Source: Elusimicrobiales bacterium (GTDB taxonomy: Bacteria; Elusimicrobiota; Elusimicrobia; Elusimicrobiales; UBA9959). Taken from it: a stretch of DNA of 8,798 nt. The translations under genes and the position numbers were made by a program. Below, piece after piece: positions 1,011 through 8,798 of this stretch. The first letter of the stretch is position 1, and the number at the start of each line of letters is the position of its first letter. The notes beneath the pieces are model-generated. The model searched no databases. It was given only the letters and a program-made list of their open reading frames with translations, and had not been told where the DNA came from. The DNA is taken from NCBI GenBank assembly GCA_026419335.1, contig JANZZP010000032.1, positions 1 to 8,798 of the forward strand, read 5' to 3'.

Positions 1011-2105
1011 TCAATTTAATCTTTTTTCAGTTTGCAAATCAAAAAAATGAAGATTTGGATAATTAACTGAAAAAGACATTTTAATGCCTGGTGATGTTGA
1101 ATATGGTTTTGAAGTAGCGCAAAGTATTGTGTCTTTTGCTACTTTTATATAAATATTTTCTCTATGTCCCAATAATTCAACAACATCTACTATTCCTTCT
1201 ATCAAATTTGTTTTATCAATTTTTGATTCATCAAGTATTACATCCTCTGGCCTTATACCTAATATAATTTCTTTATTTACATAGTTAACAATATCAGGAA
1301 AAGCGAAAACTGGTATATAAAAATTAAATTCATCTTTTGAAAAATAAAATTTATCGTCTTTTATTTTTATACATCCCTTTATAAGATTAATAGTTGGAGT
1401 TCCTATAAATGAAGCAACAAATACATTTGCTGGTTTTTTATATATTTCTATAGGACTACCTTCTTGTTGTATTATTCCTTTATTCATAACAACTATTTTA
1501 CTTGCTAGTGTCATTGCTTCAATTTGATCATGTGTTACATAAATCATAGTTGTTGAGAGTTTTTGATATAGTTTAAGCAATTCAATTCTCATTTCCTCTC
1601 TTAATTTAGCATCAAGATTTGATAGCGGTTCATCAAATAAGAATACTTTAGGATGTCTTACTATTGCTCTACCTATTGCGACTCTTTGCCTCTGTCCACC
1701 TGAAAGTTGTCTTGGCATTCTGTCTAAGAGATGAGATATTTTCAATATATTTGCTGCTTCATTAACTCGTTTGTCTATTTCTTCATTGTTGATTTTTTTT
1801 AACTTAAGTGCAAAGCTCATATTTTCTTTAACAGTCATATGTGGATATAAGGCATAATCTTGAAATACCATTGCGATTTCTCTTTTTGATGGTGGTAAAT
1901 CGTTTACCTTTAAATTATCAATAAATATTTCTCCTGATGTTATTTCTTCAAGTCCAGCAAGCATTCTTAATAGTGTAGTTTTACCACATCCACTAGGTCC
2001 AACAATTACAGTAAATTCTTTATCTTTTACAGTTAAATTTAGATTTTCTAGAACTGTTATATCTTTGAATTTTTTTGTTATAGACATAAATTTAACTTCA
2101 GCCAC
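1011..2105 (-). CDS. Sugar ABC transporter ATPase, MsmX/UgpC/MalK type
   Basis: The nucleotide-binding subunit that powers the CUT1 importer encoded just upstream; it acts as a homodimer on the inner face of the membrane. At 364 residues it has normal family length. Seen in order: Walker A GPSGCGKT (36-43), Q-loop Q82, signature LSGGQ (134-138), Walker B ending in DE (158-159), D-loop SNLDAK (162-167) and switch histidine H192. A C-terminal TOBE region follows (about 235-364) with the family motif GIRPEDV (283-289). All catalytic residues are present. The start is GTG at 2103-2105, chosen because AGGAGG lies 5 nt upstream and because homologues begin MAEVKF. An overlapping ATG at 2105-2107 is in another frame and reaches a stop quickly. 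The gap to the MalG-type gene is 9 nt, and the SD overlaps that gene's stop. ATPases of this type often serve several sugar importers. The substrate cannot be read from this subunit. Confidence 0.95.
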   Translation of the reverse strand: MAEVKFMSITKKFKDITVLENLNLTVKDKEFTVIVGPSGCGKTTLLRMLAGLEEITSGEIFIDNLKVNDLPPSKREIAMVFQDYALYPHMTVKENMSFALKLKKINNEEIDKRVNEAANILKISHLLDRMPRQLSGGQRQRVAIGRAIVRHPKVFLFDEPLSNLDAKLREEMRIELLKLYQKLSTTMIYVTHDQIEAMTLASKIVVMNKGIIQQEGSPIEIYKKPANVFVASFIGTPTINLIKGCIKIKDDKFYFSKDEFNFYIPVFAFPDIVNYVNKEIILGIRPEDVILDESKIDKTNLIEGIVDVVELLGHRENIYIKVAKDTILCATSKPYSTSPGIKMSFSVNYPNLHFFDLQTEKRLN

Positions 2106-2110
2106 ATCTA

Positions 2111-2116
2111 CCTCCT
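2111..2116 (-). promoter_or_regulatory. Ribosome binding site that sets the GTG start of the ABC ATPase
   Basis: AGGAGG on the minus strand, 5 nt before the GTG at 2105. Its first two bases coincide with the last two of the upstream TAG stop (2115-2117), so termination and re-initiation happen at nearly the same spot. The sequence reads ATGTG, with an out-of-frame ATG starting 2 nt earlier; the spacing suits the GTG better. Confidence 0.75.
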
Positions 2117-2942
2117 ATCCTTTTACACTTCCAAGAGTAAGTCCTGATACAAGGTACTTTGATGTATAGAAAAATATAATTAATACTGGTATTGTTATGA
2201 GAATTGAACCTGCTGCAAACATGCCCCATTGTGTTATAAATTGTCCTTGTAACTCAAAAAGACCTAAAGTCCAAGTATAGTTTTTAGGATTATAAAGTAC
2301 AACTCTTGCAACAAGATATTCATTCCAAGCCATAGTAAAATTAAATAAAAAAGCAATACTTAATGCCGGTTTTGATAAAGGTATTATTATACGATAAAAT
2401 GCTCCAATGTCTGTTGTTCCATCAACTTTTGCTGCTTCTTCAAGAGACCTTGGTATAGTATCATAATATCCTTTGAGTATCCATATACTAAAAGGAAGGG
2501 ATGAAACTGAATAAGCGATAATCATCCCAAGATATGTATTTATTAAATTTAACTTCATAATCATAAGATATAAAGGCAAAATAAGCATACCAGCTGGAAT
2601 CATTTGAGTGAAAAGCAATAAAAAAAGTCCCCATTTTTTACCAAAGAACTTATATCTAGAAAAAGCATAAGCAGCAGATGATGCTAATATTACTCCTATA
2701 AATGATGTCGTGAGTGTTATTATAAAAGAATTGAATATCCATCTTAGAAAATAGGTTTCATTAAATAGTTTTATATATGAGATAAAGGTAGCTCCTTGCG
2801 GTATTATATTTAGTTCAGTTGAGAATATTCTATCGCCTGGTCTTATTGATACTGAAAATATTCTTACCAGCGGGAATGTTGTTATTATTACAGAGACAAC
2901 AAGAATAATATGAATTAATGTTAATCTAATATATTTTTTCAT
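2115..2942 (-). CDS. Carbohydrate ABC transporter permease, MalG type
   Basis: One of two membrane subunits forming the channel of a CUT1 sugar importer. It has 275 residues, the usual size, with six predicted membrane helices (about 8-30, 72-95, 106-130, 137-157, 190-210 and 243-263). The cytoplasmic EAA loop that docks on the ATPase is clear: EEAAKVDG (168-175), then the conserved I187-P188. The C-terminus VSGLTLGSVKG (265-275) is the usual end of MalG-like permeases. The ATG overlaps the TGA stop of the MalF-type gene (ATGA, 4 nt), which implies translational coupling. Only a weak GAAG precedes the start. It pairs with the MalF-type protein upstream and the ATPase downstream. Confidence 0.95.
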   Translation of the reverse strand: MKKYIRLTLIHIILVVSVIITTFPLVRIFSVSIRPGDRIFSTELNIIPQGATFISYIKLFNETYFLRWIFNSFIITLTTSFIGVILASSAAYAFSRYKFFGKKWGLFLLLFTQMIPAGMLILPLYLMIMKLNLINTYLGMIIAYSVSSLPFSIWILKGYYDTIPRSLEEAAKVDGTTDIGAFYRIIIPLSKPALSIAFLFNFTMAWNEYLVARVVLYNPKNYTWTLGLFELQGQFITQWGMFAAGSILITIPVLIIFFYTSKYLVSGLTLGSVKG

Positions 2943-4120
2943 GTTTCTTCATTTTTTGTTGACATTATCTTAGAATATATCATCGTTATAATAAAAAGGA
3001 TTAAAAATACTATCATTGCAAATGCTGCGGAATAGCTATATCTATTGTATACAAATGCCGCTTTATATAAAGCAGATACTAATATGTCAGCTCTTTCTGT
3101 CCCACCTGCTTGTCCTGTAACTAGATATATAACATTTATATTGTTAAATGTCCATATAGTTCCAAGCGTTATTGCGGGAAGAAGAACAGGTTTAATCAAA
3201 GGAAGAGTTATGTATTTTAATTTTTGAAAATATCCTGCTCCGTCTATAGAAGCAGCATCATAGTAAGATTGAGATATTGATTGAAGCCCACCAAGAATAA
3301 CAACCATCATAAATGGTATTCCAAGCCATATATTTATTAAGGTACACGTTAAAAGAGGATGATCGCTTAACCAGTTTAATGGTCCTATACCAATTTTTGC
3401 CAGAATAGGAAATGTTTGTTGGATTTTTGAGAGAAATATGTTTATAAAACCATATTGTGAATGAAATTCACCCCTTAATGCTAATACTGCTATAACTTGA
3501 GGCATTGCCCATGGAATTACTAAAAACGTCCTGTATATTCCTTTTGTCTTTTTGGTTTCTATAAGGAGAAGTGCTAATATAAAACCGCCTAAAACATGAA
3601 AAAAAACATTTGAGAAAGTCCATAGGAGTGTTCTTAAAAAAAGTTTTATAAAGGTAGTTTCACTTAAAGGAGGTAATTTAAAAACATTAATATAATTCTT
3701 CAACCATACAAAATCAATATAACCATTTTCTTTCCATTTAAGTATCGTGGTTAATTTAAGATCTGTAAATGAAAGATATATTTCAAAAAAGAATGGATAA
3801 AATAATAATAATCCTAGTCCTATGAAAGCTGGAGCAATTAAAAGATATGGAAGGTAGTTGAATCCTTTTAATAATTTATTTGATATAAGAAATAATATTA
3901 TTTCTATTAAGACAAAATATAGTAAAATTTTTAAATTAAAGATATTTAAAGATTTAGTTATCAAAACAAAAAATAAAATTGAAGAAAATGATATAATTAA
4001 AAGTTTTTTAAATTGATAGTATTTTAAATGTAAATAAAGGTAAATTTCAATCAAAATAAATGAAAATATTACCAAAACAACAAAACTACTAACCTCAAAT
4101 GTAGCAAGTATATAATCCAT
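2939..4120 (-). CDS. Carbohydrate ABC transporter permease, MalF type, with N-terminal membrane extension
   Basis: The second channel subunit of the sugar importer. Most CUT1 MalF-type permeases have about 290-310 residues; this one has 393. The core starts near residue 91 (YLLIAPAFIGLG is a typical first-helix sequence) and includes the EAA loop YYDAASIDGAG (286-296) with L306-P307. The first 90 residues add about three hydrophobic helices (roughly 9-31, 39-55 and 64-81). E. coli MalF also has extra N-terminal helices, so the extension may be similar, but I see no sequence match. Between the core helices, residues about 220-255 make a modest loop, far smaller than the MalF P2 domain. The start follows the lipoprotein stop by 5 nt and has no real SD, so coupling to upstream translation is likely. 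A start nearer residue 91 would give normal length, but I see no SD for one and the extension is open and strongly hydrophobic. Confidence 0.92.
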   Translation of the reverse strand: MDYILATFEVSSFVVLVIFSFILIEIYLYLHLKYYQFKKLLIISFSSILFFVLITKSLNIFNLKILLYFVLIEIILFLISNKLLKGFNYLPYLLIAPAFIGLGLLLFYPFFFEIYLSFTDLKLTTILKWKENGYIDFVWLKNYINVFKLPPLSETTFIKLFLRTLLWTFSNVFFHVLGGFILALLLIETKKTKGIYRTFLVIPWAMPQVIAVLALRGEFHSQYGFINIFLSKIQQTFPILAKIGIGPLNWLSDHPLLTCTLINIWLGIPFMMVVILGGLQSISQSYYDAASIDGAGYFQKLKYITLPLIKPVLLPAITLGTIWTFNNINVIYLVTGQAGGTERADILVSALYKAAFVYNRYSYSAAFAMIVFLILFIITMIYSKIMSTKNEET

Positions 4121-4125
4121 GATTC

Positions 4126-5364
4126 TTATCTATCCATTTCTTCAATTTTTCTTTCAACTTCTTTTTGTATTTTTATAACTGCCTCTTCAACTGTAATCTT
4201 ATTTGTCATAACAAGACCTTGATAATTTCTAAGAGTATCCCATATTGCTCTCATCTCCCATGCCATAGGCATCGGTTTACCTTTAAGTATTTGTTCCATA
4301 GAAATTTTTGCTATTTTATCTGAGGTAATTTCTTTCGAATATGCTGCTTCAGTTAATGCTGGAAGTCTTTTTAATTCTTTAAACTGCTTTATTTGATTCT
4401 CTTTGTTTGTATAGTACTCAATGAAATCTTTTATTATTTGAAATTTTTTTCCTGAGACTTTTGAAGATATTATAAAATATTTACCACTTATCATAGGAGT
4501 AGGATATAAAGAAGTTTTTGAGTTTTTGGGTAAAACTGCTATCATAAAATTATCTTTAAAATGATTTATATATCCTGATATTGACCAATCTCCGTTTATT
4601 ATGAACGGAACTTTTTCTTCTTTAAAAAGAGAGTCCATACAATTATAATCACATTCAGGTGGAATATATTTTAATTTAAATTTTAAATCATAATAAAATT
4701 TTAATGTTTCTATCATAGCTTGTGTATTTAGAGTAGGTTTTCTATCTTCAAGAGGCCATCCACCAAAAGAGCCAAGCCATGGCATAAGCCAAAACGGTTC
4801 TCCACCATCAAATGCAAGACAATATAGAAATTTTTTGCTTTTTTTGAATTCTTCGCATAAATTGAATAATTCCTCTGTTGTTTTGGGTGGATTTTTTATA
4901 TATTTTGTATTATACATTAACATTAAATGATTTCCATTAGATATTGGTATACCCCATACTTTTCCTTCAAGTGTAATAGCTTCAATAACAGGACGATTAT
5001 ATTTGGAAATATCAAAATCTTTTTCAACGTTTTTTATGAATCCAGCAATCGCGTAAATTCCTGCTACATCAGATGGAGATATCATTAAATCTGGTGGGAC
5101 ACCTGCAAGTGATGCTGCTTGAAATTGTTGTCTAAGGTCTTCTACTTGATAATGTGCTCTTGTAAATTTAATTTTTATGTTATTTTTTGATTCATAATAT
5201 TTGATAAAATCGTTAATCAATGAGTCTATAAAAGGAGCTATATAAGCATCTTCCATTTCCCATATTACTATATGATTTGGATCTTCTTGTTTTTTGATGC
5301 ATGAGTTAACAAATATTGCTATGGTGAGTATTGACAAAATGCATTTAAACAATTTCAAGCTCAT
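4126..5364 (-). CDS. Extracellular solute-binding lipoprotein, family 1 (sugar ABC importer)
   Basis: Captures sugar outside the inner membrane and delivers it to the permease pair encoded next. It has 412 residues, normal for the family. The N-terminus is a lipoprotein signal: basic start, hydrophobic run 9-19, then V19-N20-S21-C22, where C22 is the likely lipidated cysteine. The mature part has features of maltose-type binding proteins: PPDLMISPSDVAGIYA (90-105), the GIPISNGNHLMLMYN hinge region (138-152), NGDWSI (257-262), and a C-terminal lobe ending in a helix typical of the family (about 366-410). Position and similarity suggest an oligosaccharide of the maltose/maltodextrin or trehalose class, but this is inference; binding residues cannot be assigned safely. 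The mature protein carries several more cysteines (C170, C182, C238 and C242), with C238 and C242 close enough to pair. The ATG overlaps the TGA of the small membrane gene (ATGA), and no SD is visible. Confidence 0.93.
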   Translation of the reverse strand: MSLKLFKCILSILTIAIFVNSCIKKQEDPNHIVIWEMEDAYIAPFIDSLINDFIKYYESKNNIKIKFTRAHYQVEDLRQQFQAASLAGVPPDLMISPSDVAGIYAIAGFIKNVEKDFDISKYNRPVIEAITLEGKVWGIPISNGNHLMLMYNTKYIKNPPKTTEELFNLCEEFKKSKKFLYCLAFDGGEPFWLMPWLGSFGGWPLEDRKPTLNTQAMIETLKFYYDLKFKLKYIPPECDYNCMDSLFKEEKVPFIINGDWSISGYINHFKDNFMIAVLPKNSKTSLYPTPMISGKYFIISSKVSGKKFQIIKDFIEYYTNKENQIKQFKELKRLPALTEAAYSKEITSDKIAKISMEQILKGKPMPMAWEMRAIWDTLRNYQGLVMTNKITVEEAVIKIQKEVERKIEEMDR

Positions 5365-6853: not shown

Positions 6854-8026
6854 ATGTGGAAATATATATTGTTGGTGAGTTTCTTTTTATTTAATACTAT
6901 ATACTTAAAAGCACAGGATGTTTATCAAAGTCTTGCTAATGAGCTTTCAAAATATACTGAAGGCATCAAAAAGATTGCAGTTGTGCCTTTTTCCTATGCG
7001 GATAATGTTCAATCGACTAAAGATGGTGCTGTTATAGCTGAAAGATTGAGTATAAAACTAATAAATTTAGGTAAATTTGAAGTTATAGAAAGAACTCAAT
7101 TGGATAAAGTATTACAAGAACTTAAACTTCAAAGTTCTGGAGTGATTGATGCAACAAGTGCTAAAGAACTTGGAAAAATTTTGGGTGTAGATGCAATAAT
7201 AACTGGAACACTTGTCCCTACATCAGATGGGAAGATAGAGGTTAACGCAAGAATAGTTAAAACTGATACTGCCCAAGCTATAGGAGCAGCTCAAATTTAC
7301 GTTATAAAAGATTGGATAGGAGGTGATATACAAGTTCAAAAAGATTTCCAATCACAAAATATACCAAAACAACAACCATTAATAACACAATCAAAATCAA
7401 AAAATAAATATAGTTTTATAGATATATTATTAGGATTTGGTAGTCAAAAGATGAGGCTAATGAGCGATGATAATGTGTATTTACCTTTTCCTGGTTTGTT
7501 AGGTAATTGGTCTGAAATAACCGATATAAAAACTGAAGGTATCGGTCCTATAGGAATTAGAATGGGTGGTTTTGGAGAAGGTATTGTTGGAGGTGATTTT
7601 GAATTTTCAGTATTTAAACATAAAACTTCAAAACAAAAAATATCTTGGAGTAATGGGCAAATTTTAACAATGCCAGAAGGTTTTATTAATGTGACTTCTT
7701 TTGATTTTAGTGGAGATTTGTTATTTAGAACGCTTACTAAAACACAACTTTATTTTGGTTTTGGATTTGGTTTTTCTCTTAATAAAATAACTTCAACTTG
7801 GCTTAAAACATATGATAATAAAGGTTATATTGATGAATTGTCCTTTGGTCTTTTATGGCGCATTCCAATAGGTATTAGACTTAATATGGACAAAACAACA
7901 GTGTTTTTTGAATGGAGATATCAAGGACATTGGACAACTTTCGATAGAGGAAATTATGGAAAGGAATCTCATGATATTAATATTTCCGCAACAAGGTTTT
8001 GTTTTGGAATAGGGAGTAAGTTTTAA
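6854..8026 (+). CDS. Envelope protein: CsgG-like periplasmic domain fused to a C-terminal beta-barrel
   Basis: It has 390 residues. Residues 1-20 form a Sec signal peptide ending LKA before Q21; there is no lipobox cysteine, unlike classical CsgG. Residues about 38-152 match the CsgG/FlgO-type fold seen in curli secretion and related envelope proteins: IAVVPF (41-46), then KFEVIERTQLDKVLQE (74-89) and AKELGKILGVDAIITGTL (103-120), the family's usual core. A polar linker rich in Q and K follows (about 160-185). The last 205 residues are rich in Gly and aromatics in alternating strands, such as QLYFGFGFGFSLN (298-310), and end in F390, as outer-membrane barrels do. I infer a protein inserted in the outer membrane with a periplasmic CsgG-like domain. 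The job is unknown; no csgA, csgE or csgF-like neighbour is present. It lies 26 nt after the transporter gene with a strong SD. The barrel looks too small to be the CsgG pore itself. Confidence 0.82.
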   Translation: MWKYILLVSFFLFNTIYLKAQDVYQSLANELSKYTEGIKKIAVVPFSYADNVQSTKDGAVIAERLSIKLINLGKFEVIERTQLDKVLQELKLQSSGVIDATSAKELGKILGVDAIITGTLVPTSDGKIEVNARIVKTDTAQAIGAAQIYVIKDWIGGDIQVQKDFQSQNIPKQQPLITQSKSKNKYSFIDILLGFGSQKMRLMSDDNVYLPFPGLLGNWSEITDIKTEGIGPIGIRMGGFGEGIVGGDFEFSVFKHKTSKQKISWSNGQILTMPEGFINVTSFDFSGDLLFRTLTKTQLYFGFGFGFSLNKITSTWLKTYDNKGYIDELSFGLLWRIPIGIRLNMDKTTVFFEWRYQGHWTTFDRGNYGKESHDINISATRFCFGIGSKF

Positions 8027-8058
8027 TTTAACATCTGAACTATCATTTTATATTCATG

Positions 8059-8079
8059 TTATAAAAATTCCTTTTATAA
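8059..8079. repeat. AT-only inverted repeat upstream of the clpB promoter
   Basis: TTATAAAA (8059-8066), a 5-nt loop, then TTTTATAA (8072-8079): a perfect 8-bp arm with no G or C. It lies just upstream of the -35 box, where an A/T-rich UP element would sit, and 32 bp after the stop of the CsgG-like gene. It is too weak to be a confident terminator. A promoter UP element is the likelier role, but chance in AT-rich DNA cannot be excluded. Confidence 0.3.
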
Positions 8080-8106
8080 TTATCACTCTTGACAAGTGAT
8101 TGCTAA
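8080..8106 (+). promoter_or_regulatory. CIRCE-like HrcA operator 1, over the -35 box
   Basis: TTATCACTC, 9 nt, GATTGCTAA. The CIRCE consensus is TTAGCACTC-N9-GAGTGCTAA; each half here has one mismatch (16 of 18 positions agree) and the spacing is exact. The 9-nt spacer holds the TTGACA -35 hexamer, so a bound HrcA dimer would block RNA polymerase. HrcA is the heat-shock repressor that controls groE, dnaK and sometimes clp genes; its gene is not in this window. Confidence 0.8.
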
Positions 8107-8117
8107 TAAATTATAAT
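8089..8117 (+). promoter_or_regulatory. Consensus sigma-70 promoter of clpB
   Basis: TTGACA (8089-8094), a 17-nt spacer, TATAAT (8112-8117): both hexamers are perfect. Transcription is expected to start near 8124, giving a leader of about 57 nt before the ATG at 8181. A fully consensus promoter should be very strong when free, which fits control by a repressor rather than an alternative heat-shock sigma factor. Confidence 0.9.
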
Positions 8118-8121
8118 ATAA

Positions 8122-8148
8122 TTAGCAGACAGTTTATATGACTGCTAA
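8122..8148 (+). promoter_or_regulatory. CIRCE-like HrcA operator 2, over the transcription start
   Basis: TTAGCAGAC, 9 nt, GACTGCTAA. Against the CIRCE consensus the left half matches 7 of 9 and the right half 8 of 9, with exact N9 spacing. Both halves carry G instead of C at position 7. Pairing extends outward to a perfect 13-bp arm (8116-8128 with 8142-8154), so the 5' end of the mRNA could also fold as a hairpin, as proposed for CIRCE in other leaders. Its centre is 42 bp from that of operator 1. Confidence 0.72.
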
Positions 8149-8180
8149 TTATATAAAATTTTAAATTGATGGAGGAGCTT

Positions 8181-8798
8181 ATGAATTTTGAAAAAATGAC
8201 TATAAAAGCTCAACAGGCATTACAGATTTCAAAAAATATTGCTTTGGAAAATTCAAATCAGTATATTGAACCTATTCATATTTTGATAGGAATTATAAAC
8301 GTGGAGGATTCTATTGTAGTTCAAATAATTAAGAAAATTGGCATAAATGTTAATTCATTTATTTTAGATATTAAGAGGGAGATAGATAAATATCCAAAAA
8401 TTTCGGGAAATTATGAAATATATCTATCTAATTTTTCTGAAAAACTAATTATTAATTCATTTAAAGAGATGTCGTTAATGAAGGATGAATATTTGGCTTT
8501 AGAGCATATATTTATTGCAGCTTCTGAACTAGATTATATTCCAACAAAAAATATATTTCAAAAATATTCAATTACAAAAAATTCGATTTTAAATTCATTG
8601 ATATCTATTAGAGGTACTCATAGAATAACTGAACAGGAACCAGAATCTAAATATCAGACTCTAGAAAAATATACAAAAGATTTAACTGAACTTGCTATAA
8701 AAGGTAAACTTGATCCAGTAATAGGAAGAGATGATGAAATTAGAAGAGTAATTCAAGTTCTTTCTCGAAGGACCAAAAATAATCCTGTACTTATAGGA
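8181..8798 (+). CDS. clpB: ClpB disaggregase, N-terminal part (continues beyond the window)
   Basis: ClpB is a hexameric AAA+ chaperone that works with DnaK to pull proteins out of aggregates after heat stress. I read 206 residues from the ATG. Residues 1 to about 145 are the Clp N-terminal double-repeat domain ([23 protein letters not shown]), fairly divergent in its second repeat. The match becomes strong at [20 protein letters not shown] (144-163), then [20 protein letters not shown] (167-186) and [19 protein letters not shown] (188-206). This stretch distinguishes ClpB from ClpA and ClpC. The window ends just before the first Walker A motif, so ATPase integrity cannot be judged. The start is set by GGAGG (8171-8175), 5 nt upstream. 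Two CIRCE-like operators over its promoter point to HrcA control. Confidence 0.95.

Follow-up and report, generated by a model that had tools for sequence, protein, structure and literature searches.

How would two CIRCE-like operators at a single clpB promoter act, and what holds each of them in its place? The question is raised by a window (the whole stretch of DNA analysed here, 8,798 bp long) that ends inside clpB, and for which the original prediction was a pair of helically phased operators on a perfect promoter. Operator binding by HrcA, and its release on heat, are established for this family of repressors. The classical CIRCE–HrcA system acts at the groE and dnaK operons through the element TTAGCACTC-N9-GAGTGCTAA (PMC1676014).

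Results

The promoter ahead of clpB proved to be organised as predicted, with two elements of 9-9-9 architecture whose coordinates and agreement with TTAGCACTC-N9-GAGTGCTAA we confirmed (Table 1). O1 reads TTATCACTC-TTGACAAGT-GATTGCTAA, with half-sites matching at 8/9 and 8/9 positions, and O2 reads TTAGCAGAC-AGTTTATAT-GACTGCTAA, with half-sites at 7/9 and 8/9; these half-sites follow a relaxed form, TTAGCA[A/G/C]TC, rather than the strict TTAGCACTC, and the relaxed type is common to the relatives. Across the window, a CIRCE score of at least 14/18 is reached at O1 and O2 only, the next-best score being 13/18 at one site (3551), while in 2000 windows simulated from it with a first-order Markov model the chance mean per window is 0.0265 at 14/18 or better, 0.002 at 15/18 or better and 0 at 16. 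The promoter on which both elements lie, TTGACA-17-TATAAT, belongs to a heat-shock chaperone gene and matches the consensus at 12/12 positions, with its -10 hexamer between the operators and its -35 hexamer occupying exactly the first six bases of the 9-bp O1 spacer. Transcription is predicted from the -10 position to start at about 8124, which would place O2 over the start site as claimed, and the 42-bp separation also held, being the distance between the two operator starts. At gathering thresholds, Rfam gave no match in the window.

Table 1. Features of the clpB promoter region, in window coordinates
Feature	Position	Strand	Remarks
O1, CIRCE type, 16/18	8080..8106	+	9-bp spacer encloses the -35 hexamer
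-35 hexamer TTGACA	8089..8094	+	
-10 hexamer TATAAT	8112..8117	+	17-bp spacer to -35
O2, CIRCE type, 15/18	8122..8148	+	4 nt past -10, over the predicted transcription start
Shine-Dalgarno GGAGGAG	8171..8177	+	picked by eye
clpB, 5' part	8181..8798	+	cut by the window end

The start of clpB was taken as the ATG at 8181, and the TTG at 8166 in the open reading frame list was not used. The encoded N-terminus matches TIGR03346 (E=8e-57, residues 6-206 of the 206 available), the score falling short of the full-length cut-off as the window truncates the gene. It is 64-65% identical to the ClpB proteins of G031 and G152, two genomes reached by phylum and order searches from an Endomicrobium genome; among the matches listed, the best named ClpB relative was a draft genome labelled Lokiarchaeota (50%), and an Endomicrobium locus stood at 49%. 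For the neighbouring anion transporter of the window, the 15 best relatives include four with an organism name, all of them Elusimicrobiota. Judged by these proteins, the window seems to come from an Elusimicrobiota-like organism. An anion transporter gene precedes clpB in G031 and a CsgG-domain gene does so in G152, while the window has both, where the anion transporter is followed by the CsgG/FlgO-like gene (6854-8026) and then clpB; in the 5 kb examined around the G031 clpB, the CsgG/FlgO-like gene found no match. A maltose-type ABC transporter run (ATPase, two permeases, binding protein) occupies 1011-5364 on the minus strand.

Relatives share the clpB pair only in part. Of 16 genomes with a clear ClpB, 15 came from order and family searches and one, G122, from the phylum search. 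A pair resembling that of the window is present upstream of clpB in five of them (G152, G031, G156, G123 and G159), a single site is found in nine and no site in two (G131 and G135). The single site lies on the -35 in eight of the nine genomes and behind the -10 in G122. Since these nine genomes lack O2 at clpB, the second operator is dispensable for the regulon. Where the pair is present, its arms are conserved and the upstream flank is not: in pairwise comparison of the six paired promoters (the window and five relatives), identity is 0.70-0.87 in the arms, 0.35 in the 60 bp upstream, 0.33 in the O2 spacer and 0.41 over 15 bp on the downstream side. Conservation also extends to the 4 nt that separate the -10 from O2 (0.92), and the -35 is identical in all six aligned sequences. 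The opposite pattern, poorly kept half-sites beside conserved flanks, is thereby excluded.

We reject the idea that a double CIRCE is widespread at clpB. None of 79 usable loci (the best 80 among the matches listed, minus one with <150 nt upstream) carried two sites, and six carried one (relaxed motif, at least 15/18; background 1/3473 stretches); the classical motif, with a lower limit of 13/18, gave eight matches on those 80 loci, two of them at only 13. In a first phylum sample of 30 clpB loci (L082-L111), scanned over their whole length with at least 14 required for the classical motif, seven matched and two sites were seen only in G031. One genome, G198, has two clpB copies (L198, L199), both preceded by a single operator of the same sequence whose spacer contains the -35. 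In G152 (L112), about 190 nt ahead of clpB, degenerate CAGAAGTCAGAA / TTCTGACTTCTG-like repeats were noted by eye between O2 and the start codon. In G131 and G135 (L084 1979-2245, minus strand; L120 1203-1496, plus strand), a small MerR-family gene stands directly before clpB, and its best NCBIfam match is HspR, under the model cut-off. Because clpB in these two genomes lacks CIRCE and has this HspR-like neighbour, its control there may have switched repressor.

The same operators recur at other chaperone genes, which we scored on the loci of the relatives, the hrcA-dnaK and groE loci lying outside the window. Operator pairs occur at 11 of 15 hrcA loci, in five of nine genomes with an HSP20 match, and, closely spaced, at 13 of 14 groES loci, the fourteenth (G122; L228 / L197) having two canonical-type CIRCE 131 bp apart. 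In G031, hrcA is followed by grpE-like and dnaK-like genes (named by eye), and seven of eight genome-wide pattern matches (at most two mismatches) fall at the hrcA, hsp20, clpB and groES promoters. Taken by itself genome-wide, this loose pattern is noisy, with 74 matches against 31 for the backward control in 15 genomes (an approximately twofold enrichment), and with the control above the real matches in both G122 and G156 (5 real versus 6 control matches in each). What carries the case for a regulon, in our reading of these sequences, is that the matches fall at chaperone promoters, as in G031, rather than the loose pattern alone.

Three geometries account for the placement of the pairs relative to the promoter. 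At clpB and hsp20 the -35 lies inside the O1 spacer, at hrcA the TTGACA forms part of the O1 right arm, and at groES the -35 overlaps the O1 end, while over the 35 tabulated pairs, window included, O2 starts between -2 and +5 nt relative to the -10 end. Within the clpB/hsp20 group the -35 is at O1 offset 9 in 11/11 pairs and the gap from -10 to O2 is 4 nt in 10/11 (the -10 of G159 clpB set by hand), and the spacing of the operators is 42 bp with a 17-bp promoter spacer (five pairs) and 43 bp with an 18-bp spacer (five pairs, one with its -10 placed by hand), the exception being 39 bp with a 17-bp spacer at G135 hsp20. Spacing is 52-55 bp at groES, and at hrcA it is 53-54 bp in 9/11 pairs and 49 bp in G166 and G087. 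In Cloacimonadota, where HrcA was found in 37 of 39 genomes, 26 of the 30 hrcA loci taken (L257, L259-L287) have paired CIRCE-like operators at the hrcA promoter, spaced by 57 bp in 17 cases, 58 in four, 55, 56 and 70 in one each and 71 in two, i.e., 55-58 bp in 23/26 and 70-71 bp in 3/26. In 23 of these Cloacimonadota pairs the TTGACA forms part of the right arm of the first operator.

The expected repressor is present in most of the related genomes. We found hrcA in 15 of 17, which makes its absence from the organism of the window unlikely; the two exceptions are G188 and G184, for which no HrcA was found although CIRCE is present at groES and clpB in G188 and at clpB in G184, a gap that draft genomes may explain. 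The G031 protein passes TIGR00331 (252 bits, cut-off 197) and matches the solved HrcA homolog 1STZ (E=1.4e-22). In contrast to the canonical IRxxM[A/S]xL, the recognition helix reads IR[NS][IV]LKEL in 11 genomes, and IMKKL in G131 and G135. The operators differ from the classical element at half-site position 7, which is C in the latter and G in 51, A in 48, C in 28 and T in 2 of 129 half-sites from the 35 pairs, a count that leaves out the right arms of hrcA O1.

Helix type and operator type are associated across 60 HrcA loci, six of them without a site (five canonical, one divergent). Among loci with any site, the canonical helix goes with one site at hrcA in 10/13 and with two or more in 3/13, and the divergent helix with two or more in 37/41; C stands at position 7 in 28/32 canonical versus 39/125 divergent half-sites, all these counts being drawn from related genomes that are non-independent samples. 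The direction is the same within Elusimicrobiota and within Cloacimonadota, each with only two canonical loci, and no association was found outside both phyla, where canonical loci number three with two or more sites and six with one, and divergent loci one and one. When 49 HrcA proteins are placed in one tree, those with a divergent helix from Elusimicrobiota and from Cloacimonadota fall into distinct, well-supported clades, each neighbouring the canonical proteins of its phylum; the helix label changes at least four times (midpoint root). If the canonical helix is ancestral, the helix would have changed separately in the two phyla; by parsimony we favour two such origins, a small number of events. 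An acidic residue after IRN was considered as the reader of position 7 and rejected, G001 and G122 lacking it yet keeping C.

Discussion

Our comparison sheds light on how two operators can be built into one clpB promoter, and we consider it very likely that this is an HrcA-repressed promoter in which each operator is anchored to a promoter element, the sites, the promoter and the relatives all supporting the assignment of these CIRCE elements to the HrcA system. In the mechanism we propose, O1 would act by enclosing the -35 and O2 by starting right after the -10 and covering the start site, so that in unstressed cells RNA polymerase would meet an HrcA dimer at either end of the core promoter, on O1 and on O2, and be blocked. 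Upon heat or unfolding stress, HrcA would become inactive, freeing the consensus promoter for strong clpB transcription. The same repressor, presumably shared by the organism of the window, would also control hrcA-grpE-dnaK, groESL and hsp20.

The original prediction went further and read the 42-bp distance as helical phasing, with HrcA dimers about four turns apart on the same face that could cooperate. That such dimers touch each other and that the distance itself is under selection now seems unlikely to us. The spacings of the 35 tabulated pairs do cluster near 42-43 and near 52-55 bp, a distance of 53 bp occurs at groES as well as at hrcA despite different promoter offsets (26 and 20), and the 12 distinct gene-by-spacing values give R=0.62 with a naive Rayleigh p=0.01, but these values are related by descent and not independent. 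As a rule, phasing is rejected: the spacing shifts by one bp with the -35/-10 spacer, 39-bp (G135 hsp20), 49-bp (hrcA of G166 and G087) and 55-bp pairs occur alongside those of 42 and 43 bp, and the 26 paired Cloacimonadota hrcA promoters have their mode at 57 bp, or 5.4 turns. On the simplest reading, its promoter element holds each operator in place, and dimers may in addition cooperate.

Alternatively, O1 alone might act, O2 being a decaying or incidental copy, as the single site of 9/16 relatives (eight of them on the -35) and the score of just 13/18 for the G156 O2 with the relaxed motif could suggest; we regard this as improbable in view of O2 arms that are 0.70 and 0.80 identical over six species around a spacer at 0.33, and of the 4 nt that O2 keeps from the -10 in six clpB pairs (one -10 set by hand). 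That O2 would be transcribed raises the further idea of an RNA hairpin at the mRNA 5' end, which would affect mRNA stability or translation instead of serving as an operator in the DNA. The arms of 35 O2 sites do pair with their own partners slightly better than shuffled ones (7.06/9 vs 6.77/9, p=0.015), but the excess fades to p=0.09 in the 11 clpB/hsp20 O2 sites and O1 gives p=0.56, and we reject this weak or absent covariation as proof of RNA structure; moreover, the fold of 8124-8185 is no stronger than its shuffles (z -0.39), no terminator-like site was found in 7900-8300, and the same motif also lies upstream of the start, as O1, all of which makes a hairpin quite improbable. Finally, the HspR-like gene before clpB in G131 and G135, below cut-off as it is, might point to HspR, CtsR or another repressor on these repeats; yet the clpB genes of these two genomes are exactly those without CIRCE, and the sites recur at hrcA, groES and hsp20 in relatives, so that we hold a different repressor to be highly improbable.

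Like the classical system, the HrcA-repressed promoter proposed here has a 9-9-9 inverted repeat over a chaperone promoter, with hrcA followed by grpE-like and dnaK-like genes in G031; it differs in its relaxed position 7, in pairs at many targets, in the inclusion of clpB and hsp20 and in the altered helix. Relaxation as such has a parallel in Streptococcus thermophilus, whose groESL element is reported to have G at position 7 (PMC3192767). In Mollicutes, CIRCE has been described at clpB before, M. gallisepticum having a single element. The view that a double CIRCE dedicated to clpB is less usual is fair, but such an arrangement is already in print: a report on Spiroplasma melliferum gives two copies at the clpB and at the dnaK promoters and describes the pair as being lost, one clpB copy having three mutations (PMC5138195). 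Here, by contrast, both copies are kept in six species, each of them anchored to a promoter element. Two CIRCE elements per promoter are likewise reported at Lactococcus lactis dnaK (PMC1676014) and Lactobacillus plantarum hrcA (PMC3842655), in other lineages and at dnaK or hrcA rather than clpB. In the literature searched, which took in few subscription journals, we found neither a clade-wide paired, promoter-anchored CIRCE nor a link of paired operators to an altered HrcA helix.

We further hypothesize, tentatively and with slightly more doubt than belief, that a helix change after IRN (Leu for Met and/or Lys, Asn, His or another residue for Ala/Ser) arose separately in Elusimicrobiota and Cloacimonadota and loosened recognition of position 7, each time with a second operator, and that the clpB pair of the window is one outcome, in which two loose sites keep up the strength of repression in place of one tight site. 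The altered helix would tolerate A, G or C at this position, and two weaker operators may offset the looser recognition. If the link between helix and operator is causal, the helix of HrcA in the organism of the window is predicted to read IR[NS][IV]LKEL, and the two phyla would offer a natural test of joint change in a repressor and its operator. By its sequences, this clade appears to use a loosened CIRCE, often paired and fixed to the promoter core, alongside a changed DNA-reading helix of HrcA.
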